Of a stretch of 64,000 bases of DNA, positions 27,856 through 61,346 are shown in pieces. The stretch is from Posidonia oceanica (Eukaryota > Streptophyta > Magnoliopsida > Alismatales > Posidoniaceae). A program made the position numbers and the translations under genes. The notes under the pieces are model-generated. The model was not told the DNA's origin, searched no databases, and saw only the letters and a program-made list of their open reading frames with translations. The stretch is from contig JAZBRS010000049.1 in assembly GCA_037176725.1 (NCBI GenBank), forward strand, positions 18,184,001 through 18,248,000. The letters are read 5' to 3'. Numbering within the stretch: the stretch's first letter is position 1; the number at the start of each line of letters is the position of its first letter.

Positions 27856-28666
27856 TCCTTCAGATCCAAAGTGTAGGCTCTCAACATGTCTTCCAATGTT
27901 TGAATAGTCCTCTTAGTCTGACCATCTGACTGAGGATGGAAAACAGTGCTAAAATTCATCATGGTACCAAATGCCTTTGCAAAGTTCTCCAGAACCTCAA
28001 TGTGAACCGAGTATCTCTGTCGAACACAATCGACACAAGAGCCCCATGCAGACGGACAATCTTAGACAAGTATAACTCTGCCAGCTGCAGCAAAAGGAGA
28101 TTCACCCTCATGGCCAAGAAATGAGCTGACTTCGTGAGCCAGTCCACAATTATCCACATTGTATCATTCTTCCTCCTGGTCTTGGATAATCCTGTCATGA
28201 AGTCCATGGTGACATGCTCCCACTTCCACACTGGAATATCTAGAGGTTGCAGAGTTCCTCCAGGCTTCTGATGCTTAGCCTTTACCATCTGGTAGGTCAC
28301 ACATCTAGCCACATGCTTAGCTACATCTTTCTTCATCCCAGGCCACTAGAAGTTCCTCTTTAGGTCTCTGTACATTTTGGTGCTCCTTGGATGAATGGTG
28401 TACTTAGATTAGTGAGCTTCCTCTAATAATTTCTACCTTACTTCCTCCTCTTGAGGCACATATAAGCACAGATCATACCTTAGCCCACCGTCAACACCAA
28501 CGGGAAAGTGGGGCGCCTCTCCCGCTTACATCTTTCCCCAAGTCTCCTATACAAATGGGTCCAATCATTGAGCATCAACAATTATCTCCACCAATTTGGA
28601 GCAGATAGACAAATTAGCCACCCTAGCACCAATAGTTTCTTGAGACTGCCTCCTAGGTCTACACTC
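27856..28666 (-). pseudogene. pol: T integrase, zinc-binding and catalytic core (broken)
   Basis: The minus strand encodes an HHCC-type zinc segment whose last part reads CVTYQ, so the second Cys is Tyr, then the core with VTMDFMTGL (first Asp), IVFDRDTRF (second Asp) and [20 protein letters not shown]. The residue in the last motif that is normally the catalytic Glu (DGQTERTIQ in this family) is Lys. A frameshift lies between LQ and AFGT near 27975, and the sequence ends at the LTR G insertion. Three independent defects make it inactive. It continues from the RNase H at 56830 across the 28-kb insertion. Confidence 0.88.
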
Positions 28667-28997
28667 TGTAGCGATCCCGATCGGAATCAGGCTCGCTATA
28701 TATAGCGGCGATTGAGATCCGAGGAAGAGGCTCAACTCGAAAAACACTTAAAATCGAGGAGAAAAAGGAAAGATAAGACAAATCAGAGTCGCCACCACGT
28801 CTATTAACGGAAGACGAGGAAAACCGGGGTAATGCGTGAATTAACGCGCAAAACCGAGCAATAAATGCAAAGCAAAGCAATGCAAAGGAAAACAAATGCA
28901 AACAAATGCAAATGAGATGACTCTAGCCTAGGATAAGGGCAGTACGGTCATTGCGGGCCAAAAGACAGTGTAAGGACTCCTGTTACGCGCGGGGAAG

Positions 28998-29025
28998 GTG
29001 TTAGGCACCCCCGACACGCCCGAAA
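28998..29025 (-). other. Conserved LTR stem-loop, 3' LTR of the giant element
   Basis: CGGGG and CCCCG arms surround AAGGTGTTAGGCAC (plus strand). It lies about 330 bp from the LTR's 3' end in element sense, probably in U5. The same sequence is present in the 5' LTR near 51210-51240. Confidence 0.65.
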
Positions 29026-29319
29026 ATCGGTCTTTCTAGGCTTACGCTCGCATACGCAGAAAAATGCAGGATTGAATGCCTATGTGCCTATAAATGCCTC
29101 AATGAATGCTCAAGGTGTGCACTAAGTGGGAAGAAACAAAGCAAGGAAGTAAACGTGCTCTCTAAGCGCTCAGCTACGCTGCTTGTGTTCTGAACTAGGC
29201 GAAACCTAGCTCGTGAGAACTCCAGGCAGTACGCATCACAGCCCTATATGCAAATGCAAGCGAGAAAACAAAACAGCGAGAAAACCATGCAATGCAATCG
29301 ACATGCAAGGGAGAACGGC

Positions 29320-29620
29320 GCAAAACACGCAAAACGAGGCAGGAAGCGAACAACGCACGCAAAACGATGCAAAAGAGCGAAACCGGCACGCAAAACGAGC
29401 AAAAAACAAGGCAGCGCGCAAAACGAGACAAGAGAGCAGGAAGGCACGCAAAACAGGACGAGAAAACAGAATGGTACGCAAAACGGGGCGAAAGAATAAA
29501 ATCGACACGCAAAACGAACGAGAAGGCAAGACAGTGCGCAAAACGAGACAAGAAAACATATGGGCACGCGAAACGGAGCGAAAACGAGGGCGGGCACGCG
29601 AAACGGTGCCGAAACAGCGA
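29320..29620 (-). repeat. 30-bp minisatellite, 3' LTR
   Basis: About ten units with CACGCAAAACGA cores at ~30-bp period; the equivalent tract is at 51525-51825 in the 5' LTR. Open frames on both strands reflect the period. Confidence 0.8.
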
Positions 29621-32600
29621 AGCAAAAACCTCGAGAAAGCCATGTAAATGCAAGAATGCAGAAAGAGATTAGAAGAGGCCAAAGGGGAGGCGAAACAACG
29701 TGTGTGTAAGAACAAACGTCGTTCAGGACTGCTCAAAATAGGTGTGAAGACCTACAGAGGGGAAAATGAGCAAACAGAGGGATTACCACCTCTTAGCGGC
29801 TGTTTTCCACTAAACCATTCCACGATGTGTCTCGCATGCTGCCCAGAGCTCGCGATGCGATCGGATCGTGGAAAAGGAGGAAGAAAGTCACACATAAAGT
29901 GGCAAATCCAGGGAGAACGCAACACGAAACACACAGGGAAAAGTGAAACGAGGATTTGAATAGACAAGCAAAAGGGGGAAGTCCTATTCTACATGCTCAA
30001 AGAGACAGAAAGCGAAAACAAGGAAAACTGTGCAAATGGCATGCAAATGAATGCAATGCAGGGGTTCAGGAGGACATACCTGGAGATTCGGGGGCCTGAT
30101 CTGAAATCTGCCTGGTCCATGCTGAAGAGCGCTTCGCTGCGGTCGCTTGGGCAGCTCACTTGAGAAAATCCAACGGCCGAATTGGAAGATATCGCAGCTT
30201 CAAGGTAGAAGGACCAGAACAGGGGAGAAGAACAGATCTAGGTGTTCAGGAGGTCCTAGGGATGTGCAAAAAGGTCTTCCCAAGTGAAAGGGAGCTAGAA
30301 GTGCTTAGTGTGTGCAAGGAGATGCTAAAATGCAAGACTAAATGAGTGCAGGATGCATGCAAAAGCAAGAAAAGCAAAGAGAAGTAATTTGGGAAAAACC
30401 AGGAGTTCAGAAAGCATTTTGAAAAAGAAGAGGGGCTAAAAGTGCAAATTTCCCAGAAAACAGAGTTCCATGGGAAAGGATTTTGAAAACAGAGGAAGAC
30501 AGAGGTTCTTTTGACCAAAAAACTAGGCTCAGGAAGGTGTTTTGAAAAGAGGATATGCTTTGAAAGGGGTTTTAAAAGCAGAAATGGACCAGAAAGTAAT
30601 TTCAAGAAAACTAGGGTCTAAAATGCAAATTTTCCAGAAAACAAGGTTCTGGGGAGTCTGGGAATACTAGTGGAGGGTCTGCACGAAATTTGGTAGGCAT
30701 AGGAGCTAAAATGCAACCTAGGGGCAAAATGGTCTTTTCACATGATTTTTTTAAAAAGATGCAAGGACCTATGTGTGATTTTGAAATCATGTAGGGGCTG
30801 AAAATGCAATTCAGTATGGAAAAACATGCTCTGGAATTTAAATGACAGGACCACAGTGCAATTTCTGGAAAATACAGGGTCAAAATGCAATGTAATAAGT
30901 TAAAATGCATGCAGCACAGTTACTGTCCATTTAAAATGGACCTAACTGCAAATATGATAAAGCAGAGGGGCAAATATGCAATGCATCAACCAAAAATAAA
31001 AATCAGAACCTAAGTTTCTACAGTGCATGGACTTAAATGCAAAAACAGAAAAATGCAGGGACTTGGAATGCAATGCAGTATGCAAAAATAAAAAATAATC
31101 CTAAGTTCTAACAGTGCATGGGACTTAAATGCAAAAATAAAAACACGCAAGGGGCCAGGATGCAATGCAGTATGGTAAAATATAAGTAAATAAATGAACT
31201 GACTGAGTGCAGGACCTAAGTGCGAAAATCGAGAATAGGAGGACTAAACTACAAAATATTATAACAGCACAGCACAGTAAATGGATCTACTTGCAAATAT
31301 TGAAAACCATAAACAGATTATGCAATTTAGCAAAGTATTTAATTAAAAACCAAGCAGAATAAATGAAATAAGGACTGGAATGTAAAATGACAGAAACTTA
31401 AACCAAATATGCAATATTTACTTAAAAACTTTAGCTAAAATAAAATAAGTGCACAGTGACTGGTCGACGGCGACGAGTACTGTAGCAGAGCGCCGGCAGT
31501 ACTCGTGGCCGCCGACAGGGGAGACTGAGGAGGCGCGGGAGGGCGGAGAGCGACGTCGGCGATCGTCCGGAGCTCTGGGAATGGTCCGGAGCTTGCTCTG
31601 TCGGTCGGAGTGTCCGGAGGAAGAGCGGCCGGCGCCGGAGAAGGAGACCTGTCCGGCGAGCTGCTGCGGCGTCTGAGAGGTTCGGAGCTTGGTTCTGGCC
31701 CAGGGAAAAGCAGCAGGAGGAGGAGAGGGATCTAGGGGAAAGAAAGTTTACCTCTGGTCGTGTCCGGAGCGTGCCCCCGACCTCAGTTGCACAGGAGCTG
31801 GCCGGAGCTCGTCGTCCGATTGCTGCGGAGGGTGCTGGCGGCTCGCGGTGGTCCGGGCGTCCTCAGGGTGATCTTCCGGTGCTTCCTGAACGATCAGGCG
31901 CGAGCTTCGGAGCTTGGGTGAGGAGTTGGCTTTTTTGGGTTGTCAGATTGCTGCCGGAGGCCGGGGAGGGGTGTTGCTGCTCGTCCGGTGGAGTGGAGCC
32001 CTCCGATGGGTTGCTGGGATGCTGGCGATGGAGTTTGGGTGCCTGGAGAGGGCTTCTGGAAGGCGTGGAGGGGAGTTTGAGGTCGGAGTCGATTTCTGGC
32101 CAGCGGGTGGAGTAACTGTTTGTAGTGGAGTTTACAGTCTGTGGGGGATGGCCGGGCTGGAAGTTAGGTGTTTTAGGAAGGTGGAGGTTCAGCGAATCTC
32201 TGGGTGGAGTTTGGAGGGAAGTAGCGGGCTGGAGTGGAGGGAATTGTGAAGTGGGCTGGTGTTGGGTTGCAGATGGAGGATCAGGGGATCAGAGGTGGTT
32301 TCAGTGGGTGGAATGGCCGGGAGATGGTGAAGGGAATTGGTTGTGTTTTGGGTGAACTTGGGGGAGTAATTGGGAGGGAGATGGAGGTCTGAAGTGGTGC
32401 TGGGGAATTGGAAAAGGAAGGAGGACGTTTACTGAATTTTTCAGAGGAGAGGAGAGGAAAATTGGGTGCGGGGATTGGTCTGAGATGAGGCTTCTCTCCG
32501 GGATGTCACAGGGACTCTCGAACTCTACCCTCACTGCTCTCTTTTCTCTCGAAATGGAGGATGAAGAGGAAGAGATCAGAAGCTGTTTCAGGTGGGGAAA

Positions 32601-34621
32601 AAAGGTGGAATTCTGGGATTGCTCTCGCACTGATTCCTCTCTGATCTGACGCTCACTCTCGGATGGCAAAAGGTGATTGAAGGAGGGGAAATCCGGACGC
32701 TTATATCAGGCCGAGGGCTGCCGGTGCGCGCGCTGGTGGTTTTTTGAATTCCTCCGGCGCGAGTACTGCAGCAGAAAAGAAGCGGATGCCGGCGAGACGA
32801 CAGGCAATTAAAGCCTCCCGGAATCGGTGCTGAGAGATGAGAGAGCGGCGGACGCTGTAGATGAAAGGATTGAAGGCTTCGAAATTTGAATGGGTGGAGG
32901 GAGAGCTGTTGCAGCTGGTCGCGGGAGAGAAAACTGAAGGAAAACGCTGAGAGCTGAGGAAGAAGAAAGGAGGAAGAAGAGGCATGGGCCGGACTGCTGC
33001 GGGCCGAGAAAAAGCATAGAAAAATAAAGAAAAAAAGAAACGGGCTGGATTGAGCCCAGTAAGGAAAAGTAAGAAAGAAAGAAGGGAAATAAGAAAGAAA
33101 GAGGGGGTAGGATGGGGAAATAAAATAGGTAAAAATAAACTAAAAATAAATAAAATATTAGAAGAGTTTTGCTGCAGATTAGGATTTTAATTAAGATTTT
33201 TAATGGTCATCTTGAGTAGATTAATGTGTTTTGGGCTTGATTAGGGTTTTAGGGCCTTGGTTTTTTTCTTAATTGATTTTCACTTGATTAAATGTTTGTT
33301 AAACCGTTTTTAAATTGTTTTAAAAAATTTTATTTCCCTTGTTGGACACTTAGGATATTGATTAGGATTTTTTAGGATTTATTTCGTATTAATTTAGGGT
33401 TGGTTTTAGATTTTAAAGTTGTAGTCTTCTTAGGGTTTTTCTTTCTTAAGTCTTTTAAGTTATGTCTTGATTTTTTATTTATGGATTTTTCTTGAAGTTT
33501 TTAGTTGGATTTTTCTGGTTTGATAGGGTGTTTTTAAGCTTTTCAGATGTGTTTTCTTTTCTTTTTTTAATTAAGTTTTTACTTGTTTTTCTTATGTTTA
33601 TTAGGTTAAGTCTTTTGCCTTTCTTAATTACTTGTTCTAGTATTTGATTTTTTAATTCTTCTTTTTGGGTTTTTTTTTTAATTCCTCTGATGGGTTTTTA
33701 CCTTTGGTGGGTTTTGATTTTATTTTAGCTTTTTCCTTGATTTTTCAGCGTTTTCTTTTGATTTGTTTTGCATTTTTTAGTTTGCATGCTTGGTTTTCTT
33801 TTTAGCTTGCTTAAGTTAAGTTTAAGTTGTTAATTGCTTGTTTAACATTTTTTAATTGTTTTTCTTAGTGTACTGATTTGTTTGTTTTATGTTTTGAGAT
33901 TTTACAGATTTTTATGGGTTTTTGTGGGTTTTTGCAGAAGGGAGAAAAGGAAAAGAGAAGGAGGAAAGAAATGGAGAAAGAGGGAGATAAAAGGAAAAAG
34001 GATAGGTTGGAGGAAAACGATTTTTTAAAAATTCAGAAAAAGTGTTAAAAATAAAGTAAAAATAGGGATAAGATAGAGGAAGGATAGAAACACAGAGGGG
34101 GCCCACAGCCAGACCAGAAATAGGATAAGAAGGGGATGAAAAGAGAGGTGATAATCAGGAGAGAGAGAGGAGAGAGAAAATGATAATCCCGGAGAGAGAA
34201 AAGGATAATTTGGGTGAATGGAGGTCTTAATGGTCTTGGAATGGGGTGAAAATTGGTGGGTGGGTAGTCTAGGGTTTGAAGTCTTGGGTCTGAAATTTTG
34301 GTTTGATTTTAAGGAGGTTTTGGAGGGGTTTCAAGGTGTAGAAGAAGGGTAGTTTCTCCTAGGTTTTCTAGGGTTTTTGGGAATGGGTCAGGCTTGGCAA
34401 TTCCTAGGTTTTTGGGTAGGTTTGTTGAGTGGATAGCGGTGGATTTTCCTATGGATTTTGGTTAGGTTTTGAGGTTGGGAAGGGGGGTAAAGGTTTAGGC
34501 CAAAATGGGCTGATTTTGAAGGGTAGAGAGGAGGGTTAGGGTTAGGGTTTGGTTGGGGTTTGATCCAGCAATCAACAAGAGGGCTCCAAGGGTCCAGGCC
34601 TGCCAAGATGGGGTGTCAACA

Positions 34622-34634
34622 GATGCCCCTCCCT
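34622..34634 (-). other. Polypurine tract of the giant element
   Basis: On the minus strand AGGGAGGGGCATC directly precedes the LTR start TGTTGACACC. The GGAGGGGCATC core equals that of the TR-GAG elements. Confidence 0.85.
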
Positions 34635-35168
34635 GAGCGAGGGCAAGCGGAGCGCGGCCGCTGCTCAGGATTGACAAGACACCTCATCTGACCGGCGGGA
34701 GCAGCGGGTTGCTATGGGCGTGAGCTACTTATTCGGCGGATGCACCGAAGATCGTAGCCCGTTGCCGCAATGCAAGATGCCAATGCAGATGGATGCTGTG
34801 CTGTGTGTATGCATGCTGATGCTGGTGCAATGCATGAGTTAGTATAAAAGTTAGTGCAGCTGTAAGAAAATGCTGATGCTGTGCAAGTGATACTGATGAT
34901 GCTAAAATGACATGCAGTGCTAGCTAAGAAAGTGCAGAGATGATGTGAGAAAATGGTAAAAAGGCGCGATGTGGTGCGAATGTCTGGCAGGGAGGCCAGA
35001 CTTGCACGACAAAGCGAAGGAAAACAGAGTGCAGCTGGTCCCCGCCCGGGGAGCAAGCTAGCAGGAAAGAAGGGCGCGAGGGGAGAGAGGCCAACTCTCC
35101 CATCGCAGAAAGGGGGTGCGTGATCTCGTCTTCCTGGGACAAGGTCACGCCGAAAAGGAGAAAAAAAA
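34635..35168 (-). other. 3' untranslated region next to the polypurine tract
   Basis: This 0.5-kb stretch has no convincing gene. It contains GATGCTG-rich sequence (34780-34920). It leads into the structured repeat array at 35169. Confidence 0.5.
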
Positions 35169-36200
35169 CGATAAGGTGACGGGCTTATCGTCCGGATAGT
35201 TTACGGTCCTATCAACCGGGAGTGACAGTTTACGGTCCTGTCAACCGGAGCAGTTGTGAGTGATAGTTACTGGATATCAGCCGTATAACATGGTTGTGGG
35301 TGATAGTTTAGGAGTATCAGCCTAGCGACAGTTTACGGTCCTGTCAACCGGTGGATAGTTTACAGACCTATCAACTGGAGCGACAGTTTACGGTCCTGTC
35401 AACCGGAACCCACAAACCATGAGTGATAGTTACTGGATATCAGCCGTATAACGCAATGCCGGATAGTTTACAGTCTATCATCTGGAACGACAGTTTACGG
35501 TCCTGTCAACCGGCGGATAGTTTACAGTCCTATCAACTGGTGGATAGTTTACAGTCCTATCAACTAGAAACGGCATTGCGAGGGACAGTTACTGGATGTC
35601 AGCCGTATAACATCATTGCGCGTGGTAGTTTACAGTCCTACCAACTGGTGGATAGTTTACAGACCTATCAACTGGAGCGACAGTTTACGGTCCTGTCAAC
35701 CGGCGGATAGTTTACAGACCTATCAACTGGAAACGCGCAATGATGAGGGATAGTTATTGGATATCAGCCATATAATGCAATTGCTGGTGATAGTTTAGGA
35801 ATATCAGCCTAACGATAGTTTACGGTCCTGTCAACCGGTGGATAGTTTACAGACCTATCAACTGGAGCGACAGTTTACGGTCCTATCAACCGGAAACCGC
35901 AATTGCAAGGGACAGTTACTGGATGTCAGCCGTATAACGTAATTGCACGCGGTAGTTTACAGTCCTACCAACTGGAGCGACAGTTTACGGTCCTGTCAAC
36001 CGGTGGATAGTTTACAGACCTATCAACTGGAAAAGTGCAATTACGAGGGACAGTTACTGGATGTCAGCCGTATAACACAACTGCGGGCCGACCATGGATC
36101 GACCAGAAGATAGTTTAGGATTATCAGCCTGAGATAGTTTCGGATATCAGCCTAGCACGAGTGATTGATAGATGATAGTTTCGGATATCAGCCTAGCACG
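35169..36200 (-). repeat. Structured repeat array with pseudoknot-type units and nested outer stems
   Basis: About thirty units of 20-28 bp. The commonest has arms GAYAG/CTRTC and CRGT/ACYG interleaved with a TTTA spacer, the topology of an H-type pseudoknot. Five groups of three or four units are enclosed by long arm pairs: 35289-35301/35408-35421, 35452-35461/35571-35580, 35611-35623/35733-35745, 35776-35787/35897-35907 and 35938-35948/36035-36045. Groups are separated by exact 30-nt linkers, each with its own small unit. GCAGTTGTG (35250-35258) and CACAACTGC (36076-36084) bracket the set. In element RNA the spacer becomes an A-rich loop (TAAA). The region is the 3' untranslated part, known to be hypervariable in Ogre-like elements; function is unknown. 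Confidence 0.85.
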
Positions 36201-36225
36201 AGTGATTGATTGATTGATAAGAGGG

Positions 36226-36978
36226 GGCAAGATCATGATGAGAATGATAAGATATCGGACTTATCGGCCGGCAAAGAGGGGATGAGGTAATGATGAGAAG
36301 TTGATCTAAAGAGGGGGATGAGATCATGATGAGAAATTAAGCTAAAGAAGGGGATGAGATCATGATGAGAAATTAAGCTAAAGAGGGGATGAGGTAATGA
36401 TGAGAAATTAAGCTAAAGAGGGGATGAGATCATGATGAGAAATTAAACTAAAGAGGGGGATGAGATCATGATGAGAAATTAATCTAAAGAGGGAGATGAG
36501 ATCATGATGAGAAATTAACCTAAAGAGGGAGATGAGATCATGATGAGAAATTAAGCTAAAGAGAGGTTGAGATCATGATGAGAAATTAAGCTAAAGAGGG
36601 GATGAGATCATGATGAGAAATTAAGCTAAAGAGGGGATGAGGTCATGATGAGAGATTAAGCTAAAGAGGGGATGAGGTGATGATGAGAAATTAAGCTAAA
36701 GAGGGGATGAGGTCATGATGAGAGATTAAGCTAAAGAGGGGATGAGGTCATGATGAGAGATTAAGCTAAAGAGGGGATGAGACCATGATGAGAAGTTAAG
36801 CTAAAGAGGGGATGAGATCATGATGAGAAATTAAGCTAAAGAGGGGGATGAGATCATGATGAGAAATTAAGCTAAAGAGGGGATGAGATCATGATGAGAA
36901 ATTAAGCTAAAGAGGGGATGAGGTCATGATGAGAGATTAAGCTAAAGAGGGGATGAGGTCATGATGAGAGATGTTGAT
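36226..36978 (-). repeat. ~36-bp tandem array, about twenty copies
   Basis: Units read roughly GATGAGATCATGATGAGAAA followed by TTAAGCTAAAGAGGG, with single-base variants (GGTCATG, AGATTAAG) spread so that neighbouring units often share them, as expected from unequal exchange. GATAAG...CTTATC units bound it at both ends (36246 and 36979). No spacers occur, so it is not CRISPR-like. Such arrays in 3' regions of Ogre-like elements are known seeds of satellite DNA. Confidence 0.9.
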
Positions 36979-37140
36979 CGATAAGATATCGGACTTATCG
37001 GCCGGCAAAGAAGAGGTAAGGGAATGATGAGAATGATAAGATATCGGACTTATCGGCCGGCAAAGAAGGGGTAAGGGAATGATGAGAATGATAAGATATC
37101 GGACTTATCGGCCGGCAAAGAAGGGGCAAGGGAATGATGA
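36979..37140 (-). repeat. ~55-bp tandem repeat with CGATAAG/CTTATCG hairpin
   Basis: Three units carry GATAAG, ATAT, CGG, CTTATC and CCG in that order, for example at 36980-37004, followed by GGCAAAGAAGGGGTAAGGG. The two arm pairs are interleaved as in the 35-kb units. Further single copies lie at 35169-35194 and 36246-36270. Confidence 0.8.
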
Positions 37141-37151
37141 GAAGAAACCAT

Positions 37152-37588
37152 CCCCATGACGCCAGGAACGTCATGGGGGAAAGAGGGAAGGAATGATACC
37201 AAGGGGCGATCAAAAGATGCCCCTGGTGTCGGGATGACACCAGGGGCTGGCCAGCGCGTCCTTGGCATCGAAAGCAGAGAGTGATGACAAGAGTGTCGTG
37301 CTTGTCAGACGAGTAGTTTGGGGTACCAGCCCGCAAGGGATTCAGCTGAGGGCGATCAGCTGGGGACTCAGCTGGGGTGACCAGCCGAGAAGAGTGTCAG
37401 GTTGACGGACCTTTCGCCGAGCAGTTTGGGGTGCCAGCCCGCGGGGATGATGGTCCAGCTGGGGCGACCAACTGGGGACTCAGTTGGGGATGACCAGCCG
37501 AGAAGAGGACTCAGCTGGGGATGATCAGCTGGGGATGATACCACCGGGCGACCAAATGATGCCCCTGGTATCAGGATGATACCAGGGG
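37152..37588 (-). other. Three perfect hairpins in the 3' untranslated region
   Basis: CCCCATGACG/CGTCATGGGG (37152-37161/37169-37178, loop 7), CCCCTGGTGTC/GACACCAGGGG (37220-37230/37236-37246, loop 5) and CCCCTGGTATC/GATACCAGGGG (37562-37572/37578-37588, loop 5). The last two differ by one base pair changed on both arms (G-C versus A-T). Between them lie a GACAAG/CTTGTC unit with TCGT/ACGA (37286-37312) and GYA...TRC units (37313, 37421). Confidence 0.8.
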
Positions 37589-38084
37589 ATGGCCGATGCG
37601 CCCCTGGCATCAGGATGCAGAGATAGATAAGCAAGTGGATGGAAGATAGGTTGACGGACCCATCGCCGAGCAGTTTGGGGTGCCAGCCCGCAAGGGACTC
37701 AGCTGAGGATGAACAGCTGAGGAGGATGACAGGTTGACGGACCTTTCGCCGGGCAGTTTGGGGTGCCAGCCCGCAAGGATAAGAGTCCAGCCGGGGATAA
37801 CCAGCTGGGGATGCCGGACGGCGGAGCTTGGTGTCGCGGGCCTGCAGATGCTCTGGGCTCCGGATTGGGTGTTGAGGACTTCGCCGCGCTGGGATGTCTG
37901 CAAGTCTGATTAGAGGGCCCAAGATAATGATGATGATGATATGCAATGCAGCAAAGAGTCTTGATGTGCAAGCAGAAAGCAGAAACAGTTTTCATTAATA
38001 TGATCTTGATAAGTACAATGCCTGAGGCAGGCCAGAAATGTACAGCACAAAAAAAAGAAGACCACATGATGATCGCACAAGGGC
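37589..38084 (-). other. End of the structured region, then plain 3' untranslated sequence
   Basis: Further TGACGGACC...CGCCG and GCAGTTTGGGG units occur to about 37800. From 37800 to the stop of the extra ORF I see no repeat or gene, apart from a short GATGATGAT run near 37930. Confidence 0.5.
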
Positions 38085-39287
38085 CTAGTCAACCCGGGCC
38101 TTCTTCGGCTGCCTAGAGTCGGGGAATAAGGGGCCGCCTGGCGGGACTTCAGTGATCGGCCAGAGCTGTCGGACTTCCGCTTCATAATCAGAAGTGCATC
38201 CATTACCTCTCACAGCTGCAACGTCTGTAGATTGGACCCCATGCTGCATCAGACTAGCAAGCTTCTTGGTTGGGGCAGTGGTGCTGAGAGAATAAGTCCG
38301 TAGAAGCTCAGGCGCTGTACTGTCGATGAAGGCGCCCTGCTGGAAGCCGAACTGGCGCATGACCCTGATTGGATGGTACTCTACGCCTGCTGTGAAGCCT
38401 GGAAGAATGATCAGCCGCGTGTCACGCGCGCTGAAGAAGACTGTGAAGGGCTCTGCTGCAGAGGGAATGATACGCCAGGTCACAGCGTCGTCAGTCAGTG
38501 CTGACAGCCTCTCGTACTCTTCTTTGACGCTCTTGTCTGCTCTGGTACGGGCGCTACTGCAGTAGGCTTCGAAAGCATGCATTTGAGGGCGCAGGAAGTC
38601 CATTTCTAAGTGCGCGATCAGCCAGACTTGTATAAGTGCTCCGCAACCGTGGAGGTGGCGGCAGCGATGAGAAATGCGGTCCAGCCCGCGATAAGTCTCT
38701 GCCAAGACAACTGGTGCCAGATCTATGTGCTGGGTCACCACAGCTAGTGCAATCTCTGCAATCTCGATGGCCACCGTCAGTCGGCCATGAGTGAAGATTA
38801 GTTCGCCTAGGAAGCGGATGACGAATCCTTGGAGCCACAGCTCATCTCCGAGGTCAGCACGCTTGTTCATGATATCCTCAAAGTGTGTAAGGCGAAGCAT
38901 AGGCTCTTGTCCACTGGTGCAGATTAGCTTCTGTTGGCAGGTTCGAGTGGATAGCCCAGTCAGCTGGCTTAGGACCTGGAGATATCCGTCGCGCCTCATG
39001 AAAACAGGCGGCCCCAAGATCTTTGAAAAGCCGCATATCCGACGCACCTCTTCCAGTGTAGGTGTCAGCTTAGTTTTGTTGAAGCGGAAGACATGATGCG
39101 CCGGCTTCCAGAATCTCGCGGCGGCACACAGAAGGTGGCGGCTGACCTCCACATCAGCAGCCTTCAGCAGTTTAGTTGGTATGCCCCACAGGCGCAGCTT
39201 TTCACAGTCTATCTGAGTGAGCTTGCCGATCCATTCTTGTAAGGTTTCCGAGCAACGTGCGAGAGTTAACAGAGTAGGAAAGCCCAT
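38085..39287 (-). CDS. Extra ORF of the giant element, DUF7745-like protein downstream of pol
   Basis: The 400-residue frame is intact. Residues ~31-60 (LRLWGIPTKLL, DVEVSRHLLCAAARFW) and 61-90 (KPAHHVFRFNKTKLTPTLEE) show the pattern of the plant domain known as DUF7745, seen in Ogre-type ORF1 proteins and related to the plant mobile domain: an FWxP step, an aromatic-rich strand, then LTPTLEEVRRICGF. Residues ~160-235 (GELIFTHGRLTVAI, APVVLAETYRGLDR, GCGALIQVWLIAHLEMDF) also fit. The C-terminus is basic (QPKKARVD). In Ogre elements the related ORF is usually between the 5' LTR and gag; here it is after integrase, same strand, separated by 1.5 kb. How it is translated is unclear. Assignment is from remembered motif patterns, not a search. 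Confidence 0.65.
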   Translation of the reverse strand: MGFPTLLTLARCSETLQEWIGKLTQIDCEKLRLWGIPTKLLKAADVEVSRHLLCAAARFWKPAHHVFRFNKTKLTPTLEEVRRICGFSKILGPPVFMRRDGYLQVLSQLTGLSTRTCQQKLICTSGQEPMLRLTHFEDIMNKRADLGDELWLQGFVIRFLGELIFTHGRLTVAIEIAEIALAVVTQHIDLAPVVLAETYRGLDRISHRCRHLHGCGALIQVWLIAHLEMDFLRPQMHAFEAYCSSARTRADKSVKEEYERLSALTDDAVTWRIIPSAAEPFTVFFSARDTRLIILPGFTAGVEYHPIRVMRQFGFQQGAFIDSTAPELLRTYSLSTTAPTKKLASLMQHGVQSTDVAAVRGNGCTSDYEAEVRQLWPITEVPPGGPLFPDSRQPKKARVD

Positions 39288-40795
39288 TACGCTGATTTGC
39301 AGAGGGACAGGCAGATAGCTGCAGAAACTTGGAAGTACCTGCTATCAATAAACAGTCGGATCTCGCAGGCATATAATCTTTGACAACAAGCAGAAGCTGA
39401 GACTGAAAATGTAGTTCCATATGCATTCAGCAGTTGATAACAGAACATAGCAATTAAGCACAAATAAACAAAGGTAATTGGCAGCAGTCCGGCGAATGCA
39501 GGGGCGAGGGCCAGCAGGTGATCTGGACCGGCGCAGCTTGAGTGTCGTCGATGTGCCTCTGCTGGGGAAGAGTACTGCCTCAGGGCCTGAGCGGGTCGCA
39601 GAGCGGAGAGATTGGCAGAAGGGGAAAGGAAAGAAAGAAGATGCATGAATGCAAGATGCTAGTGCTGTGCTTATGATGACAAGAATATTACTGGATGAAT
39701 AAGTATGCTTGAATGGATGGGTATGCTAGGGTGGATGGGTATGCTAGGGTGGATGGGTATGCTAGGGTGCCCTCAGCATACGGAGTGCTTTGGTGCCTGC
39801 TACAAAGGAAGGGAGTGGTCCTTGACTCACTGGGCCCTACTCAGACTCTTGGCTTATTGGTGGCGCTCCGGAACAGGTTGTTTGGCATTATACAAGTGGT
39901 GATGTGGTGATGACAGGGTACTGGCTGCACTCTCAGGACCTACACCTATTCTTTCAGCTCTCTTTTTTTTGAAAGGTTTCTCCCTCATAGGTATGCAGTC
40001 TTTCTCTGCCCCTAGCTAGGAGAAGGTATGTGTTTGCTCTTGGGAGGATGTGGTAGACCCCTTTTCCAGGCTTGACATGCTGGGGATCTCTAGTAAAGTA
40101 TGGGGGATAGCGGTGCCTGTGTTTTTCGGGCTACCTTTGCCTTTTCTTCTTTCTTCTTTTTTTGTTTTGCTTGCTTTTCTCCCTTTTTTTTTGTCTTTGT
40201 TTTTGTTGTATCTCTCTTTTTTTTCTCTTCTTTTTTTTTGCTTGATCTTTTTCCTCTTTTTTTCAGGCTTTTGCTATCCCCATTCTGGTGGCAAAAGAAG
40301 GGTGCTTGAAATGTGATGGATTCAGATTTTGGGTCTGCTGTGTGATGGGTAGAAGGAGCAGGGTTAGACTGCACACCCCTATCTCTAGGGCCGGCTTCTG
40401 TCTTCGTCTTCTGTTCCTTGGAGGTGCCCAAACCTAGATGTCTATTCTCAGTTTTTTTTCAAGCTCACATCCTAACATTTTTTCTCCCTCAGAGGTGTAT
40501 GTCCTTGCGAGATTAGGCAGTTCGCCTGTCCCTGTTGGTGGTGGCTCCCTTACTTGCTAAGACATCTAAGTAGTGCCTGGTGAGGCAGGGTGACTCTTTC
40601 CAGAGCAGGCAAGCACTTCCGGTTGTCATCATCGGGCGAAAGACGTGATGTTTGAGAGGATGACGATGATGATTTGAAAAGAAAGGGGGCGAGAGTTGGA
40701 AGGATGACGATGATGATTTGAGATAGGATTGAAGTAAGAGGGCGAGAATGTAGATGCAAGTGGGAGAAGGGCATCTGCAACGGGGCCGCTTTCGG
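39288..40795 (-). other. Spacer between integrase and the extra ORF
   Basis: This 1.5-kb spacer has no convincing gene. A small 18-bp tandem repeat lies at 39710-39768. A strongly strand-biased tract at 40137-40266 is pyrimidine-rich on the plus strand, hence purine-rich in element RNA. The open frame 40050-40316 simply follows that tract. Confidence 0.5.
39710..39768 (-). repeat. 18-bp tandem repeat, three copies
   Basis: GTATGCTAGGGTGGATGG repeats three times, with a diverged first partial unit (TTGAATGGATGG). Confidence 0.85.
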
Positions 40796-42733
40796 CTACT
40801 GATAGTACTTCTTTAGATAGCAGAGGTTGACGGGCTCCGATTGCTCGACTTGGTCCATATCTTCAAGGGTTACAGCGCCTCCCGAAAAGATCTGCTTGAC
40901 CACAAAGGGGCCACGCCAATTGGGTCGGAATTTCCCTCGACCGTCAGGCAAATGAATGGCACGCAAGACAAGGTCCCCTGGCTGGAAGCTTCTGGGCTGG
41001 ACCTTCTTCAAGAATGCTCTGGCCATCCGCTTCTGATAGCAGTGAGCGTTGTGCATGGCTTGCAATCTGCGCTCATCAATCAAGTTCAGTTGGATGCAGC
41101 GGTCTTCGACCCATTCTGCTTCTTCCAACCCAGCTTCCCGCAGGATCCGTAGAGAGGGGATCTCCACTTCAATAGGTAGCACCGCTTCCATGCCGTACAC
41201 CAGAGAGTACGGGGTGGCTCCTGTAGAGGTCCGGATTGATGTCCTGTACGCCCAGAGCGCGTACGGGAGCTTGTCGTGCCAATCCTTGTGGGTTTCTGCC
41301 ATTTTCTTCAGAATCTTGACAATGTTTTTGTTTGCAGACTCCACTGCTCCGTTCATCTGAGGCCGATAAGGCGAGGATCGATGGTGCTTGATCTTGAGAC
41401 TTTGCAGGTATTCTTCGATCCTTTTGGCAATGAAGTTTGAGCCGTTATCAGAGATGACAGAGTGCGGGACCCCATATCGGGCAACAATATTGTTTCTGAT
41501 AAACTTCTCTGTTGCCAAAGCGGTGACTGCCTTGTAAGAAGCCGCTTCCACCCACTTGGTAAAGTAATCGATCGCTACCAGAATGTAACGATGACCATTT
41601 GAAGCAGCGGGGTGGATGGCGCCGATGACATCGATCCCCCAGGTGGAGAAAGGCCATGGCGAAGACATATTGTGCAGCTGATGTGGAGGGGCCTTGATGA
41701 AGTTGCCATGAATCTGACAGTTGCGGCATCTACGCACGAACCGGCAGCAGTCGGCTTCCATGGTCTGCCAGAAATATCCTTGCAGCATAATCTTCTTGGC
41801 CAGGAGGACGCCGTTCATGTGCGGGCCACAGGTCCCCGCATGCACTTGAAGCATCAGCGTGTCAGCCTCCGATTTGTTTAGACAGCGCAGTAGCATTTGA
41901 TTGTATGACCTTCTGTACAGCTGTCCGGCCCCTAACACATACTTCGACGCCAGACGCGCCAAAGTTCTTTTGTCTGTTGCCGTGGTATCAGGAGGAAAGT
42001 TACCAGACTCCAGGAAGGATTTTATGTCCTGATACCAGGGCTGCCCCCTTACCGGATCCGCTTCTTCTATGCTCATGCAGTATGCAGGCTGTTCAATGCG
42101 AGTGACTGATACATCCACACTGCTGTCTTCAGAAATGGTGAGCCAGGATGCCAGAGTTGCTAGTGCGTCTGCATACGCGTTCTTTGCTCTGTTCAGGTAT
42201 GTGAAGCGGATGCTCTTGAATTTTTCCATCAGCCTCAGCAGGCGTTCGTGATACGGCACAAGCTTGGGATCTTTTGTCTTCCAATCGCCGTTCACTTGAG
42301 AAATCACCAGCATGGCATCGCCGTGCACATGCAGCTTCTGCGCCTCATGCTCGAGGGCGACCTTCAACCCCAGGATGCATGCTTCGTATTCTGCTTCGTT
42401 GTTTGTGCAGGTGAAAGTCAGCTTCCTCGCGAAAGGAGTCATCTGTCCTTGGGGCGTGGTCAGCACTGCGCCTACGCCTCGGCCCTTCTTGTTGACTGCA
42501 CCATCAAAGTAGAGCTGCCATTCCTCTGCTTCTTCAGGATCTTTTTGCTCAGAGTCCTCCATTGCAAAGAGAATGTCTTCATCAGGGAACTGCGTCTGGA
42601 GGGGTTGGTATTCAGGCAGAGGAAGGTCGGCAAGATGGTCTGCCATTGCTTGACCCTTCATGGATTTCTGCGTGACAAAGGTGATGTCGTACTGAGACAA
42701 TAACACCTGCCACTTAGCACATCTGCCCACCAT
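40796..42733 (-). CDS. pol: Pol, second part: archaeal-type RNase H and integrase of the giant element
   Basis: This 645-residue frame continues the RT frame after a single TAG. Residues 73-200 are a second RNase H with Asp77 (LYFDGA), Glu115 (NNEAEYEA), Asp139 (VHGDAML) and Asp189 (YADALA), the archaeal-type domain acquired by the Tat lineage. The integrase zinc domain has His298, His305, Cys336 and Cys339. The catalytic triad is Asp368 (WGIDVIG), Asp429 (VISDNGSNF) and Glu465 (NGAVESANK), a DD35E spacing, all present. A GPY/F-like end (GDLVLRAIHL, WRGPFVV, ~590-620) follows and no chromodomain. The first ATG is internal to pol, so it is not a natural start. Apart from the upstream TAG the domains look functional. 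Confidence 0.93.
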   Translation of the reverse strand: MVGRCAKWQVLLSQYDITFVTQKSMKGQAMADHLADLPLPEYQPLQTQFPDEDILFAMEDSEQKDPEEAEEWQLYFDGAVNKKGRGVGAVLTTPQGQMTPFARKLTFTCTNNEAEYEACILGLKVALEHEAQKLHVHGDAMLVISQVNGDWKTKDPKLVPYHERLLRLMEKFKSIRFTYLNRAKNAYADALATLASWLTISEDSSVDVSVTRIEQPAYCMSIEEADPVRGQPWYQDIKSFLESGNFPPDTTATDKRTLARLASKYVLGAGQLYRRSYNQMLLRCLNKSEADTLMLQVHAGTCGPHMNGVLLAKKIMLQGYFWQTMEADCCRFVRRCRNCQIHGNFIKAPPHQLHNMSSPWPFSTWGIDVIGAIHPAASNGHRYILVAIDYFTKWVEAASYKAVTALATEKFIRNNIVARYGVPHSVISDNGSNFIAKRIEEYLQSLKIKHHRSSPYRPQMNGAVESANKNIVKILKKMAETHKDWHDKLPYALWAYRTSIRTSTGATPYSLVYGMEAVLPIEVEIPSLRILREAGLEEAEWVEDRCIQLNLIDERRLQAMHNAHCYQKRMARAFLKKVQPRSFQPGDLVLRAIHLPDGRGKFRPNWRGPFVVKQIFSGGAVTLEDMDQVEQSEPVNLCYLKKYYQ

Positions 42734-42781
42734 GGCCAGCTTCTGGAAGAGGAATTTGATGGGATCGTGCCGGCATAAGAG

Positions 42782-44164
42782 CTACACTGGGTATGCCATC
42801 ATGTAGTGTCTCAGCTTCTGTGCAGCCCAGACAAGTGACAAGCAAGTCTTCTCTAGTGTTGTGTACCTGGCTTCACATTCATTAAATTTCTTGCTCAGGT
42901 AGTAGATGGCGCGCTCCTTTCTACCAGATTCGTCATGTTGGCCCAAGACGGCGCCCATGGAATGTTGCGTGGTAGAAAGGTAGAGAAGCAAAGGTCTCCC
43001 CGGCGTAGGCGGGACCAGGACAGGAGGCTTGATCAACAGCTGCTTGATCTTGGCAAATGCAGCCTGACACTCCTTGCTCCAGTGAATCTGCGCATTCTTC
43101 CTCAGGAGCTTGAATATGGGTTCACAGATGGGCGTAAGCTGTGCAATGAAGCGACTGATGTATTGTAAACGCCCAAGCAGACTTCTGACTTCTTTTTTAG
43201 TTCTAGGGGGTGGCATGTCCACGATGGCTTGTGCTTTCAACGGGTCCACCTCAATCCCCCTTTGGCTAACAATGTAGCCGAGCAATTTGCCAGAAGATAC
43301 CTCGAATACGCACTTCTTGGGATTCAGGCGCAGCTTGTACTTCCGTAGACGGTTAAAGAGCTTTCTGAGACAGGCAAGATGATCCTCGGGCTCTTTGGTT
43401 TTGGCAATCATATCGTCTACATAGACCTCCACTTCTTGGTGCATGAGGTCGTGGAATAGCGCAGTCATGGCCCTTTGATAGGTTGCACCAGCATTCTTCA
43501 GGCCGAACGGCATGACTTGGTAGCAGAAGACTCCCCAAGGGGTGATGAATGAAGTCTTTTCCATGTCCTCTTCTGCCATCTTGATCTGATTGTATCCGGA
43601 GAAGCCGTCCATGAAGGAGAGCATTTTGTGGCCCGCTGTATTGTCGACTAGGACGTCAATGTGAGGCAATGGAAAGTCGTCTTTGGGACTCGCCTTGTTC
43701 AGGTCCCTGTAGTCGATACAGATCCTGATTCGGCCATCTTTCTTGGGCACAGGTACAATGTTTGCCAGCCATTCAGGATAAAGAACGACCTTCAGAAAGT
43801 TGACTCGAAGCTGCTTCATTATCTCTTCTTTGATCATGAGCAGCCACTGCGGTCGCCATCTTCTCAGTTTCTGCTTTACAGGCTTGGCATCCGGATTTAA
43901 GGGCAGATTGTGCACCACTATCTCTATGTCAAGGCCGACCATATCTTCATAACTCCAGGCGAAGACATCCGCATATTCTTTCAGGAATGCGATGAATTCT
44001 GCTCGAACCTGGGTGGACAGCTGGGCACTGATGCAAACTTCTCTGACTTCCTCAGCTGTGCCGATGTTGACAACCTCCGTTTCTTCTTCGACATGGAGGT
44101 TGGGGCCTTCTGGGTCGTCGTCATAGGGCCGGAACTCGGGCAAAGGTTCGTCAATCTCATCCAT
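42782..44164 (-). CDS. pol: Pol, first part: reverse transcriptase and degenerate RNase H
   Basis: The 460-residue frame has the RT palm with Asp186 (SFMDGFSGYNQI), MPFGLKNAGATYQRAM and YVDD at 248-251, then the thumb and connection. The following RNase H-like part reads LYLSTTQHSMGAVL, where active gypsy enzymes have Asp at the start, so this domain is catalytically degenerate, as is usual in Tat elements that carry the second RNase H. The frame ends with TAG at 42782-42784; the next codons (LLCRHDPIKFLFQK) continue in frame into the integrase ORF, so a single stop splits pol. The frame is open for about 15 codons above the ATG and overlaps the end of gag-pro in the -1 frame. Confidence 0.93.
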   Translation of the reverse strand: MDEIDEPLPEFRPYDDDPEGPNLHVEEETEVVNIGTAEEVREVCISAQLSTQVRAEFIAFLKEYADVFAWSYEDMVGLDIEIVVHNLPLNPDAKPVKQKLRRWRPQWLLMIKEEIMKQLRVNFLKVVLYPEWLANIVPVPKKDGRIRICIDYRDLNKASPKDDFPLPHIDVLVDNTAGHKMLSFMDGFSGYNQIKMAEEDMEKTSFITPWGVFCYQVMPFGLKNAGATYQRAMTALFHDLMHQEVEVYVDDMIAKTKEPEDHLACLRKLFNRLRKYKLRLNPKKCVFEVSSGKLLGYIVSQRGIEVDPLKAQAIVDMPPPRTKKEVRSLLGRLQYISRFIAQLTPICEPIFKLLRKNAQIHWSKECQAAFAKIKQLLIKPPVLVPPTPGRPLLLYLSTTQHSMGAVLGQHDESGRKERAIYYLSKKFNECEARYTTLEKTCLSLVWAAQKLRHYMMAYPV

Positions 44165-47100
44165 GCCCGTATCATCCTCTTCTCCATAAGTTCTGAGAGG
44201 ATCTCTTTCTCAAAAGAAGTACTTGTGATTTTGAAAGAGTGTATGTGTTCCGCTGCTTGGCCCTGGTGACGCTTTAGGATGGTCACACTCACTCGAGTAT
44301 TCTTGTAGCCTCGGTGCGTGACCTCCATCCCAGCAACTCCTTCTACCGCTTGCTCTGGCCTGACTGATTCTGCTGAGTGCTCTGTTGATACTGCTGAGGG
44401 CTTAGCTGACTCTACTGCTGATACTGCTGACTGTTCTGCTGCTGAGGCTGCTGACTGCTCTGCTGCTGAGGCATTCTGCTCTGTTACTGCTGCTGCATGT
44501 ACTGCTGATGTTTCTCCCTCTGGGTCTTCTAGTGTGCTCGTGGAGGATATGCCGGACTGGCGGCTGATCTGGTCACTGCCGCTCGATGCCTTGCTCAAGT
44601 GAGGCATGGGTTGCACAAACCACCTAGACCCGCCTTCTGGTTGAAGAGTGATGAGCTCATCTGGTCTAGGGGAGTCCGGCGCTGCTGAGTCTTCTAGGAC
44701 CATGATAGAGGCATGGTCCTCTTGCAGAGGAGGATCCGTGACTACGGCTTTCCCTTTCCTTTCTGCAGCTTGGTGATCTGCCAGGTCATCTGCTATCGAC
44801 TTGAGTTGTTCTTGATAAAGCAACTCTAAGTCGGACATCCAGGAATCGACCTGGGCTTCTATCGCCACTCCTTCTTCTTCGTCCGAGGGGGAGTCGACGT
44901 AATAAGCGCCGGGGGCCTGCGGCACTAGCCCGGCTGCGAGACGGATCGTTGCCCTTGGAATCTGCATGATCTGGTTCACGGGTGCGTCCGCTGATGGCAG
45001 TTCAGATGTGGGAGGCCCAAATAGACAGGCCAGTGGTGCTGCTGATGGATAAGCTTCCAGGGTCACTGCGGAAGAGTAAACAGGGGTGCTCCTTGGAGGG
45101 CTCAAGGGCCCGGAGAGTGTAGTGCTCAGTTGGCCTTTTGCATCGGGCCGTAACTGAGAGAGCGCAGCCTCTGACGCCATAGGGTCTTGCCATGAGAGCT
45201 GCTGCAGGTTGTCAGGAGAATGCGAAGCGGACTGCGCCAGCTGCATTCCTGAAGATGATGCTGAAGGAGCGGGCTGGGCCACGCTGCTGACTGAGTTGAT
45301 AGACTGCCCCTCCAGAGATGGGGACAGTGGCACTGATGTGGTTGTGACCGCCGGTAGCATACTTGGTTCTGCCAGAAGGAGTGTCTCTAACTCCTGCACT
45401 GCTGCTGACTGTTCTTGAGGAGCTGATGTGGCTGCTGAAGGATGGGAACTTGCATTTGCCACAGGGCCTGCTGAACTGCCTGCTGTTTCTGCCAGAGGGA
45501 GAGCTGAATAAACTGACTGTGGGGCCTCTGCTCTAACCACTGTTTCTGCTGAACTGATTGGGACTGCCTCTGTTGCATCAGACTGCTCCTCATCCGAGTA
45601 GTAGTCCTCAACACACACCCAATCCCTTGTCGGCGCTGCGGCTTGGTAGTCGGTTGATCCCAGAATTCCTGCACTGGTAAAGTTAGTGAGGTCTCTGGGA
45701 ATGGCTGGTGCACGATCTCTGAGTTGAAAGCAGTGATCTTCGTCGAACTTTGGTTCGTAGCCGAGACCTTCAGACTTCCTTCGCTCCACTGCTATGATCG
45801 GCTCCGCGATCCCTTGGCCGTGACGCCCGAGCGGCGTACCCTTTGTGTAACCCCACCTGTGACATACATTCTCGACCATTCGAAAGGGGTTGCTGTGAAC
45901 GGTCAAGGAGTTGACACGTTCAAGATCAGGAACGAAGTTAACTGGCTCGCACCGGTTAACGCGATAGAAGGCTTCAGAAGTCTCGGGGTCAAATGGGATA
46001 GATTGCGAAGACACGGGAGAGACTGCTTCGATCCGCTCCTTCTCAAAGTTCTCCGCCATGACGACAATGACATCATCGCCACGACGGTACTTTATCATTC
46101 GATGGAGGGTCGAAGGAAGGACCTGATGCTTGTGGAGCCAAGGGCGCCCAAGCAGAAGATTGAAGTTAGGCTTCAAGTCGACGACATAGAATTCTACGTC
46201 GAAGACGACCGGACCGATAGCCAGAGGGATAATCAGAATCCCTAGAGCATCATGGTGAGTGTTGTCAAAAGCAGTCATTCCCTTCACGGCTGGCGTGATA
46301 TCCTCGGCTTTGAATCCGAGCTTGGTTGCTGTACGCAAGGGGCAGACGTTAAGGCCTGACCCGTTATCAACTAGTGTTAGGGGAATGCGGAAGTTTTTGA
46401 ACTGCACCGTGACGAATAGGGGCTGGTTGTGATTAATCCCCGCCGGAGGCAGTTCATCACTCGTAAAAGAGATGACCTGGGGCTCCGCGATTAACCCAAC
46501 CATGCTCTCCAAGGCAGAAGGCTCAATGGACTGGGACACACGAGCAGCCTGGAACACGCGAAGAAAAGCCTCGCGGTGCTCGGCAGAAGTGTGGATCAAA
46601 TCCCAGATGGAGATGTCGGCTTTGACCTTCTTAAGCTGAGAGGTTAAGTCTGCTTTAGGTTGGCTTCTCCTAGCAGCTGGAGGAGTGGTTCTAGCAGGTT
46701 CTAAGGGGATAGTGGAAGGAAGCTGGGTTACTACAGGCTGGGTAGGGATTTGGCTAACTACAGGCTGATCTGGGGTTGGATCTGCTATGGGTTGGCTTGA
46801 GGGTGGGGGCATAACAGGTCTAGGGTGAGTTGGCCTAGTTGCCGGCATTGGGGGCCTGTAAACCCTCCCCGATCGCGTTACTTCCGCACACATTTCCGTG
46901 GCGTAGCTGTAAGGGACGCGATGGGTGTCCATGGTCAAATCAATGACGACTAGAGCACGTGCTGCGAGCACAGGAGGGGTTACAGGGGGACCTATAGGAT
47001 ACTGAGGTCTGTCTAAGGGATATGGTTGTTGTGGTGGGAAGGCTGGGGCAGGTTGAGGTCTGCCTAGAAGGTGTGGCTGAGGTCGCCCTAAAAGGTGGAT

Positions 47101-50887: not shown

Positions 50888-50888
50888 C

Positions 50889-56800: not shown

Positions 56801-56829
56801 TCCAGGCCTGCCAAGATGGGGTGTCAACA
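50889..56829 (-). repeat. 5' LTR of the giant element
   Basis: The 5941-bp LTR is nearly identical to 28667-34621. Visible differences are a 16-bp deletion after 51487 between GCGAGAAAAC repeats, changed poly-T length near 52955, and scattered substitutions (for example 51052, 51190). It drives transcription leftwards. Same internal layout as the 3' LTR. Confidence 0.95.
51525..51825 (-). repeat. 30-bp minisatellite, 5' LTR
   Basis: Same tract as 29320-29620 with a few substitutions. Core CACGCAAAACGA. Confidence 0.8.
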
Positions 56830-61333: not shown

Positions 61334-61346
61334 GATGCCCCTCCTT
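61334..61346 (-). other. Polypurine tract of copy C
   Basis: AAGGAGGGGCATC on the minus strand, identical to A1, directly before TGTAGATATC. Confidence 0.85.

Follow-up and report, generated by a model that had tools for sequence, protein, structure and literature searches.

The locus and its host element

Five successive stem-enclosed blocks whose arms differ from one block to the next, yet pair within each block, raise the question of what keeps those arms paired and in which molecule. The blocks occupy positions 35250-36084 of a 64,000-nt stretch of Posidonia oceanica DNA (hereafter, the window: contig JAZBRS010000049.1, positions 18,184,001 to 18,248,000, from a genome assembly of 2.96 Gb in 80 contigs). 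A sequence-only reading of the window had proposed that these blocks, bracketed by a sixth pair of arms, form either a large multibranch wheel in 3′ untranslated RNA or a cruciform in DNA. Coordinates given here are those of the window and features are on its minus strand unless stated otherwise.

Judging from sequence, the host is likely an Ogre-type Ty3/gypsy LTR retrotransposon, coded on the minus strand. Its 3′ LTR (28666-34621; sense start TGTTGACACC, sense end GCTACA) and 5′ LTR (50888-56829, placed by alignment to the 3′ LTR) measure 5.95 kb each, share 99.04% identity across 5958 columns and run in sense from TGTTG to TACA, with a 5-bp GAGTG target duplication on both flanks. A likely polypurine tract, assigned from its letters, adjoins the 3′ LTR at 34622-34634 (in sense, AGGGAGGGGCATC running into TGTTGAC). 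ORF calls and profile matches locate gag, protease-like, RT, RNase H, RVT_3 and integrase ORFs within 40796-49536, the protease match being weak (under its Pfam cut-off) and a G-patch accompanying the gag/protease region. RVT_3, which we take to be the extra RNase H (aRH), is placed between RT/RH and integrase, as the order gag-prot-RT-RH-aRH-INT requires. That order, with the extra RNase H between RH and INT, is given for Ogre and Retand alike in PMC6317226, which also reports a plant mobile domain (PMD) eORF in 57% of Ogres; the element studied here carries this domain (PF10536, E = 9.6e-21) in its 3′ ORF, in sense orientation (38085-39341, 418 codons).

The 3′ UTR extends for 3.46 kb from the stop of the PMD ORF to the 3′ LTR (34622-38084) and contains the 835 bases of the six-stem feature. 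Since the feature lies between the sense PMD ORF and the 3′ LTR on the minus strand, the plus strand on which it had first been read is the antisense. A coding role for the arrays of this region was ruled out, as they are located past the last long ORF. A 35-nt unit repeated in tandem about 20 times (36273-36969, strand unassigned) separates the wheel from a second structured module, termed D below. Elsewhere in the window, a solo LTR at 8884-14996 shows 80-91% identity to both LTRs in two stretches, with an ATAGG duplication on either side, and a 3-kb inverted repeat pair of 79% identity (4322-7246 and 60989-63979) perhaps represents LTRs of another family.

Six stems and a predicted closed wheel

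All six arm pairs and all six linkers of exactly 30 nt, including those before the first and after the last block, were found as written when the window was read again. The sequence-only reading had not noticed the predicted pseudoknots described below, the element that hosts them or the pseudoknot module on the flank. The blocks, or spokes, are as follows: spoke a (35938-36045, arms CGTAATTGCAC/GTGCAATTACG) encloses three predicted pseudoknots of a type designated A; spokes c (35611-35745, arms CATCATTGCGCGT/ACGCGCAATGATG) and d (35452-35580, arms CGCAATGCCG/CGGCATTGCG) enclose four A pseudoknots each; spokes b (35776-35907, arms TGCAATTGCGG/CCAGCAATTGCA) and e (35289-35421, arms CATGGTTTGTGGGT/ACCCACAACCATG in sense) enclose three A and one B2 pseudoknot each. 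The linkers, each with a predicted B-type pseudoknot, are at 35259-35288, 35422-35451, 35581-35610, 35746-35775, 35908-35937 and 36046-36075. Pairing of 35250 with 36076, said to close the whole set, was confirmed: the two strands of this outer stem with its extension (5′ strand in sense 36076-36092, 3′ strand 35240-35258) were delimited by arm permutation and masked folding, the extension comprising 7 bp (36086-36092 with 35240-35246, two of them G.U).

Among all 720 possible assignments of arms to partners the true one ranks first (sum 161, mean 88, next 145.5), and it does so again with arms re-extracted by a fixed rule (161, mean 85, next 142.5). Arms of different blocks are diverged homologues, that is, duplicates, so letters common to arms are expected and the evidence resides in pairs altered on both sides. 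Of the 12 arm pairs aligned between blocks 3 and 5, eight are identical, three are double-changed with Watson-Crick pairing kept and one end pair is changed on one side; block 2 against block 4, and against block 5, gives one double change with pairing kept among six pairs compared. The compensating change that had been suggested for the arms is supported by these two-sided differences and by the pairing found in a second family (see below).

For the fold of the whole feature, minus-strand positions 35240-36094 were folded with the pseudoknot cores forced unpaired, and the free letters were shuffled 100 times. The masked fold contains all six stems, the outer-stem extension and three extra pairs topping block 4, at an energy of -93.1 against -36.3 ± 5.3 for the shuffles (best shuffle -52.8; z = -10.8). 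Tested pairs of all six stems are also present in the unconstrained minimum-energy fold. With its location in the 3′ UTR of the element, this modelling supports the multibranch wheel in untranslated RNA. Unmasked totals are no lower on the sense strand (minus -267.8, plus -278.2), hence nested energies do not choose the strand, and the minus-strand assignment comes from gene orientation and loop geometry: read on the minus strand, the pseudoknots have fitting loops (1-2 nt for the first; 3-5 nt, A-rich, for the last), whereas a plus-strand reading would leave an A unit with a last loop of about 1 nt.

Predicted pseudoknot units in spokes and linkers

The spokes are filled by a 27-nt A unit, in sense CGGU-U-GACAG-G-ACCG-UAAA-CUGUC, a predicted H-type pseudoknot in which helix 1 is CGGU/ACCG, helix 2 is GACAG/CUGUC and the loops are of 1, 1 and 4 nt. 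There are 19 A units within 35193-36032, 17 of them inside the 835-base feature. The 30-nt linker unit, B, reads ACGG-CU-GAUA-U-CC(a)GU-AAC-UAUC and is a predicted H-type pseudoknot with a bulge; in the B2 units at 35302 and 35789 helix 1 is UAGG/CCUA. Predicted pseudoknots in the wheel thus come to 17 + 6 + 2 = 25. Scanning and unit reading place two A-type and one C-type pseudoknot directly 3′ of the wheel in sense (35169-35250), and by unit reading three more B2-like units, with helix 1 short or interrupted, are at 36109-36195. The C type, CGG-CC-GAUAAG-U-CCG-AUAU-CUUAUC, occurs at 36246-36270 and further at 36979-37004, 37035-37059 and 37090-37114.

A pseudoknot scan of 35170-36230, which disallows the linker bulge and includes some matches that are neither A nor B units, returned 24 non-overlapping matches at score 18 (7.4 ± 1.6 in 20 dinucleotide shuffles) and 15 at the stricter score 22 (2.2 ± 1.1 in 20 dinucleotide shuffles). 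Across the 64 kb, the sense strand has 122 matches (about 1.9/kb), with 20 in the 35-36 kb bin and eight in the 37-38 kb bin; the other strand has 108, with seven and six in the same bins.

Both helices of the A and B pseudoknots covary between units. Pairing holds in 96.5% of cells of the A set (19 rows, 16 distinct; the alignment of unit 35460 includes a gap), whose covariation score is 0.281 against 0.160 ± 0.024 shuffled, with slid versions at 0.072 or less; two-sided changes occur at three pairs, A-U/G-C in helix 1 and both A-U/G-C and U-A/C-G in helix 2. Permuting whole 3′ strands among the 18 gap-free A units, 156 of 162 pairs were observed and the maximum in 5000 trials was 153. B units (11 rows, 8 distinct) score 0.335 against 0.160 ± 0.038 shuffled. 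Independent events are few, with eight distinct cores among the 18 gap-free A units and three covarying pairs, and a U.U ends helix 1 in five of the 18 cores. Counts of pairs with two-sided changes and of pair types did not exceed shuffles for A units (132 and 500 of 500) or for B units (50 and 198 of 500). Some stem letters differ between units, but the loops hardly do, A units keeping UAAA and B units CU and AAC.

Stacking sums, computed with an assumed pseudoknot penalty of 7.5-9.6 kcal/mol and with coaxial stacking left out, give the strongest A type (CGGU/GACAG) a slight edge over its own hairpin (-6.6 to -8.7 vs. -6.4), and put weaker types at or above theirs (CAG/GAUAG, -1.5 to -3.6 vs. 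-3.8). Since the sums are mixed across types, energy alone leaves the pseudoknots unsettled and the argument for them is covariation; we regard the units as pseudoknots specifically with good confidence.

Near-identical copies and a second wheel-bearing family

Forty full-length copies of the feature were scored among 4346 candidates in the genome, all at 99-100% identity, the window included. Of 855 columns, 63 vary among 28 of these copies (8 + 20, from the 40 scored). C>T or G>A accounts for 83 of 116 changes and 62 of 116 are at paired positions, slightly below the 65% expected; given this excess, and changes not being concentrated at paired positions, most copy differences look like neutral decay after insertion. 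Double changes at predicted partners were seen in two copies against 0.25 expected (P = 0.027, weak evidence): the window itself (35757 with 35770, in a linker pseudoknot) and L005 (35246 with 36086). The 35-nt repeat region varies far more than the wheel among copies; as the copies compared had been ranked by the wheel core, the lower variability of that core is not taken as evidence.

Relatives in the same genome were probed with PMD homologues from public data (16 proteins). The nearer group, P0001, gave 106 scored matches and the 3′ sides of eight (L077-L084) were read. Two of the 18 sister loci read in total, L081 and L082, have the wheel architecture, with A/B units. In L081 the outer stem is identical to that of the window (GCAGUUGUG/CACAACUGC), with six linkers and five spokes whose arms are CGUAAUUGCC/GGCAAUUACG (a), UGCAAUUGC/GCAAUUGCA (b), CGCAAAC/GUUUGCG followed by CCC/GGG (c), CAUAAUUGCA/UGCAAUUAUG (d) and CAUGGUUUGC/GCAACCAUG (e). 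Spoke b is the same as in the window, a and e have common outer pairs and different inner ones, c and d are clearly different, and every spoke pairs. Of the 720 assignments, the true one again comes out on top (130, mean 80, next 117.5) and the masked fold contains all six stems (-57.5 vs. -18.2 ± 4.4, z = -8.9). The L081 family had 40 copies scored of 5462 candidates, at 96-100% identity and including L081; in six further copies pairing of the arms persists, no arm having more than two non-Watson-Crick positions.

L082 is weaker: it has three spokes and lacks the outer stem, its true assignment is first of 24 (70.5 vs. 64, one of the four scored pairs being no real stem), its masked z is -2.8 (-38.8, best shuffle -38.1) and one stem is missing from the free fold. 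Family copies with non-pairing arms, which the sequence-only reading had named as counter-evidence, did not appear in the two other families found to have such blocks: pairing holds in six of six stems in L081 and three of three in L082. At the sequence level, then, the analysis demonstrates the arms, linkers, pseudoknot complementarities and two-sided changes, along with a wheel in a second family with partly different arms that pair. Repeats in the other six loci of L077-L084 were read as GCUUG..CAAGC hairpins. L082 also holds, at 524-857, about 11 copies of a pseudoknot-like unit, CGG-C-UGAUG-G-CCG-UUAAA-CAUCA.

Sister families and the flanking D module

The D module (37150-37335) consists of predicted D1 and D2 pseudoknots and a hairpin, CCCCUGGUGUC/GACACCAGGGG; the stretch 37399-37772 adds more D1/D2 sets and another hairpin. 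A double change sets the hairpin CCCCUGGUGUC/GACACCAGGGG at 37246 apart from CCCCUGGUAUC/GAUACCAGGGG at 37588. D1 is of the type GGG-CU-GGCA-C-CCC-AAAC-UGCC and D2 of the type CGG..AGGU-CCG-UCA-ACCU. Sister families of the P0004 group gave 121 scored matches, of which 10 had their 3′ sides read (L067-L076): nine of these, all except L072, contain a module homologous to window 37186-37333, usually twice and flanking a tandem array, and the arrays between the flanking modules differ among loci.

The D1 set comprises 31 units from the window and nine loci, 22 of them distinct, including one that resembles a chance match and was kept. Because the search pattern fixed some end letters, the free evidence is in the middle pairs: in helix 2 one pair is G-C 12 times, A-U nine and U-A once, and another is U-A 13 times, C-G five and U-G twice. 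The D1 covariation score is 0.440 against 0.301 ± 0.022 shuffled (slid, at most 0.124); counts of covarying pairs and pair types were not above shuffles (127 and 169 of 500). A D1 wobble count of 25 vs. 2 was discarded as largely imposed by the fixed pattern letters. For helix 2 of D2, with 16 units that probably include two chance matches, 51 of 80 cells are Watson-Crick against 38.0 ± 3.3, none of 3000 permutations being as high.

In the P0004 group, L071 and L073 have pseudoknot units CGG-UC-GAUAAG-U-CCG-AAA-CUUAUC, resembling the C type of the window, some with a mismatch in helix 1, and L067, L069, L070, L074, L075 and L076 have units of 47-60 nt with two hairpins each. The UUCG hairpin of sister loci covaries, CCU/AGG being exchanged for CUU/AAG and CAUG/CAUG for CGUG/CACG: across 117 units, of which 51 are distinct and a few are off-target, 289 of 408 cells are Watson-Crick against 244.5 ± 6.1, none of 2000 permutations being as high. 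For the GCUUG hairpin (99 units, 53 distinct) the Watson-Crick permutation was not significant (987 of 3000); its sense-strand G.U outnumber A.C, 71 to 20. Hairpin units of 41-42 nt, UUGAUAAG/CUUAUCAA, also form arrays in L073 at 1401-2435 in sense, and L071 has hairpin units UCGAUAAG/CUUAUCGA at 1202-1627 in sense, with a paired change relative to L073.

In a further group, P0014, the PMD ORF is inverted relative to the integrase in the loci read (L011, L020 and L026). No pseudoknot array was detected in 30 loci of this group (L009-L038) or in eight longer ones (L059-L066), where match counts are near background and, for the longer loci, no 500-nt bin exceeds five; L063 lacks the array, yet a stretch of its integrase is 80.7% like that of the window. 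When five P0014-group loci were folded in 250-nt segments with 20 shuffles, z went down to -6.8 in L066 and to -5.6 in one segment of L059, the rest being at least -3.8. The 3′ side of L066 (2900-5050) has many GUUGGACGC/GCGUCCAAC hairpins with varied tips. In database searches, no match was found for the A unit in IMG/VR or in GTDB genomes, for the 3′ UTR in phage records or for the array in plasmid records; for the integrase, one IMG/VR stretch fitted a pattern and none was confirmed.

Proposed role and alternatives

We propose that the 835-base sense (minus-strand) RNA would fold into a closed six-stem wheel whose five spokes and six linkers would carry about 25 H-type pseudoknots as a rigid scaffold, likely to shield the 3′ region of the genomic RNA and aid translation in the manner of tobamovirus tandem pseudoknots. 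Folding in the cell as described is a prediction of the modelling. It is very likely that selection acts on RNA structure here, and the explanation as a whole, a wheel of pseudoknots in an Ogre-type 3′ UTR serving as scaffold for genomic RNA, seems to us probable. The role in stability and translation, argued from analogy, is put forward tentatively. Known packaging and translation signals of retroelements are mostly at the 5′ end, which counts against a 3′ role. We prefer the scaffold role because poly(A) can substitute for the 3′-UTR pseudoknot domain of TMV, to which eEF1A binds, according to PMC4683447 and PMC5382211, and its nearest rival is Gag binding.

In that rival, the same fold would do a different job, as a multivalent platform for Gag (or the PMD protein) that marks and compacts full-length RNA for packaging. 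Many near-identical modules with nearly invariant loops and varying stem letters are what repeated binding sites would be expected to look like, and Ty1 packaging papers appear to discuss pseudoknots; however, where the window has its pseudoknot array, sister families carry hairpin arrays, which leaves the D module as the only site kept throughout, and we consider the platform possible but doubtful. A mutational origin without selection appears unlikely: strand-switching during reverse transcription or replication would copy one arm onto the other. Quasi-palindrome correction of this sort is known and could also give double changes, the arms measure 9-13 bp around loops of about 80-110 nt, and switching would be favoured by the tandem repeats and by co-packaged templates, but such copying does not readily explain interleaved helices that covary separately, bulged arms and kept loop lengths, nor does it predict the G.U over A.C excess of the sister-locus GCUUG hairpins.

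The integrated DNA itself might be thought to carry the feature, as a cruciform or as protein-binding inverted repeats, since the arms are perfect or near-perfect on both strands and unmasked fold energies are similar on both. The cruciform of the sequence-only reading is rejected on topology, because interleaved helices are impossible in duplex DNA; with loop geometry suiting the minus strand only and the site being a sense 3′ UTR, any DNA-level function looks very improbable. Hypervariable tandem repeats are common in Ogre 3′ UTRs (PMC7004042), and complementarity could in principle arise by chance in a repeat of that type, a reading contradicted by the permutation ranks, the masked folds and the cross-family arms and hardly credible in view of them.

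Under the scaffold explanation, the lineage would keep a structured 3′ UTR in which D1/D2 are conserved and array modules can change while pairing holds; in the wheel subgroup those modules would be pseudoknots inside arm-closed spokes. We lean towards the broader view that the hypervariable repeats of Ogre 3′ UTRs may be a fast-evolving, selected RNA architecture, with modules duplicated, swapped and re-lettered and pairing restored, and that the wheel may be its most elaborate form, perhaps larger than any other assembly of tandem pseudoknots in RNA. Should the fold be real, one RNA domain would contain about 25 pseudoknots, maintained through compensatory changes in two or more amplified families; a repeat oddity noted as a source of satellite DNA would then offer a way to test selection on RNA architecture and to see how RNA structure survives rapid sequence turnover. 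The array offers a natural tandem-pseudoknot substrate for tests of translation, decay, silencing and packaging.

Comparison with known systems

Identity with a known Rfam RNA or tRNA was rejected: the 64 kb gave no match above gathering threshold against 4227 Rfam families, and ARAGORN found no tRNA or tmRNA, although a diverged tRNA-like fold could escape detection. H-type frameshift pseudoknots such as that of BWYV have the same topology as the wheel units, and an A-rich last loop is common to both; the position of the wheel pseudoknots past the last ORF makes a frameshift role unlikely. Ty1 and Ty3 genomic RNAs are reported to provide pseudoknots in LTR-retrotransposon RNA, as predicted in the wheel; they are not known to form tandem arrays or a wheel.

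The sequence-only reading knew of no description of such a structure, and likewise titles and abstract beginnings among the matches listed in open-licence literature describe no array of pseudoknots in the 3′ UTR of a retrotransposon. No described counterpart of the predicted arm-closed wheel was found there; its pieces, tandem H-type pseudoknots and Ogre 3′-UTR repeats, are known. Hypervariable tandem repeats of Tat/Ogre 3′ UTRs have been described as a source of satellite DNA (Macas et al. 2009, as cited in PMC7004042) and resemble the window array in lineage type, place and difference from family to family; the main text of PMC7004042 contains neither 'pseudoknot' nor 'secondary structure', whereas the repeats of the window are covarying structured modules.

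Among plant RNA viruses, caution comes from satellite tobacco mosaic virus, whose predicted tandem pseudoknots were mostly inconsistent with SHAPE according to PMC3551766. The upstream pseudoknot domain of TMV and other tobamoviruses resembles the predicted wheel in that short pseudoknots follow one another in a sense-strand 3′ UTR, there too that of an RNA replicon of plants. TMV has three pseudoknots followed by a tRNA-like structure; the wheel would instead have about 25, in five arm-closed spokes and pseudoknot linkers, and belongs to an LTR retrotransposon.
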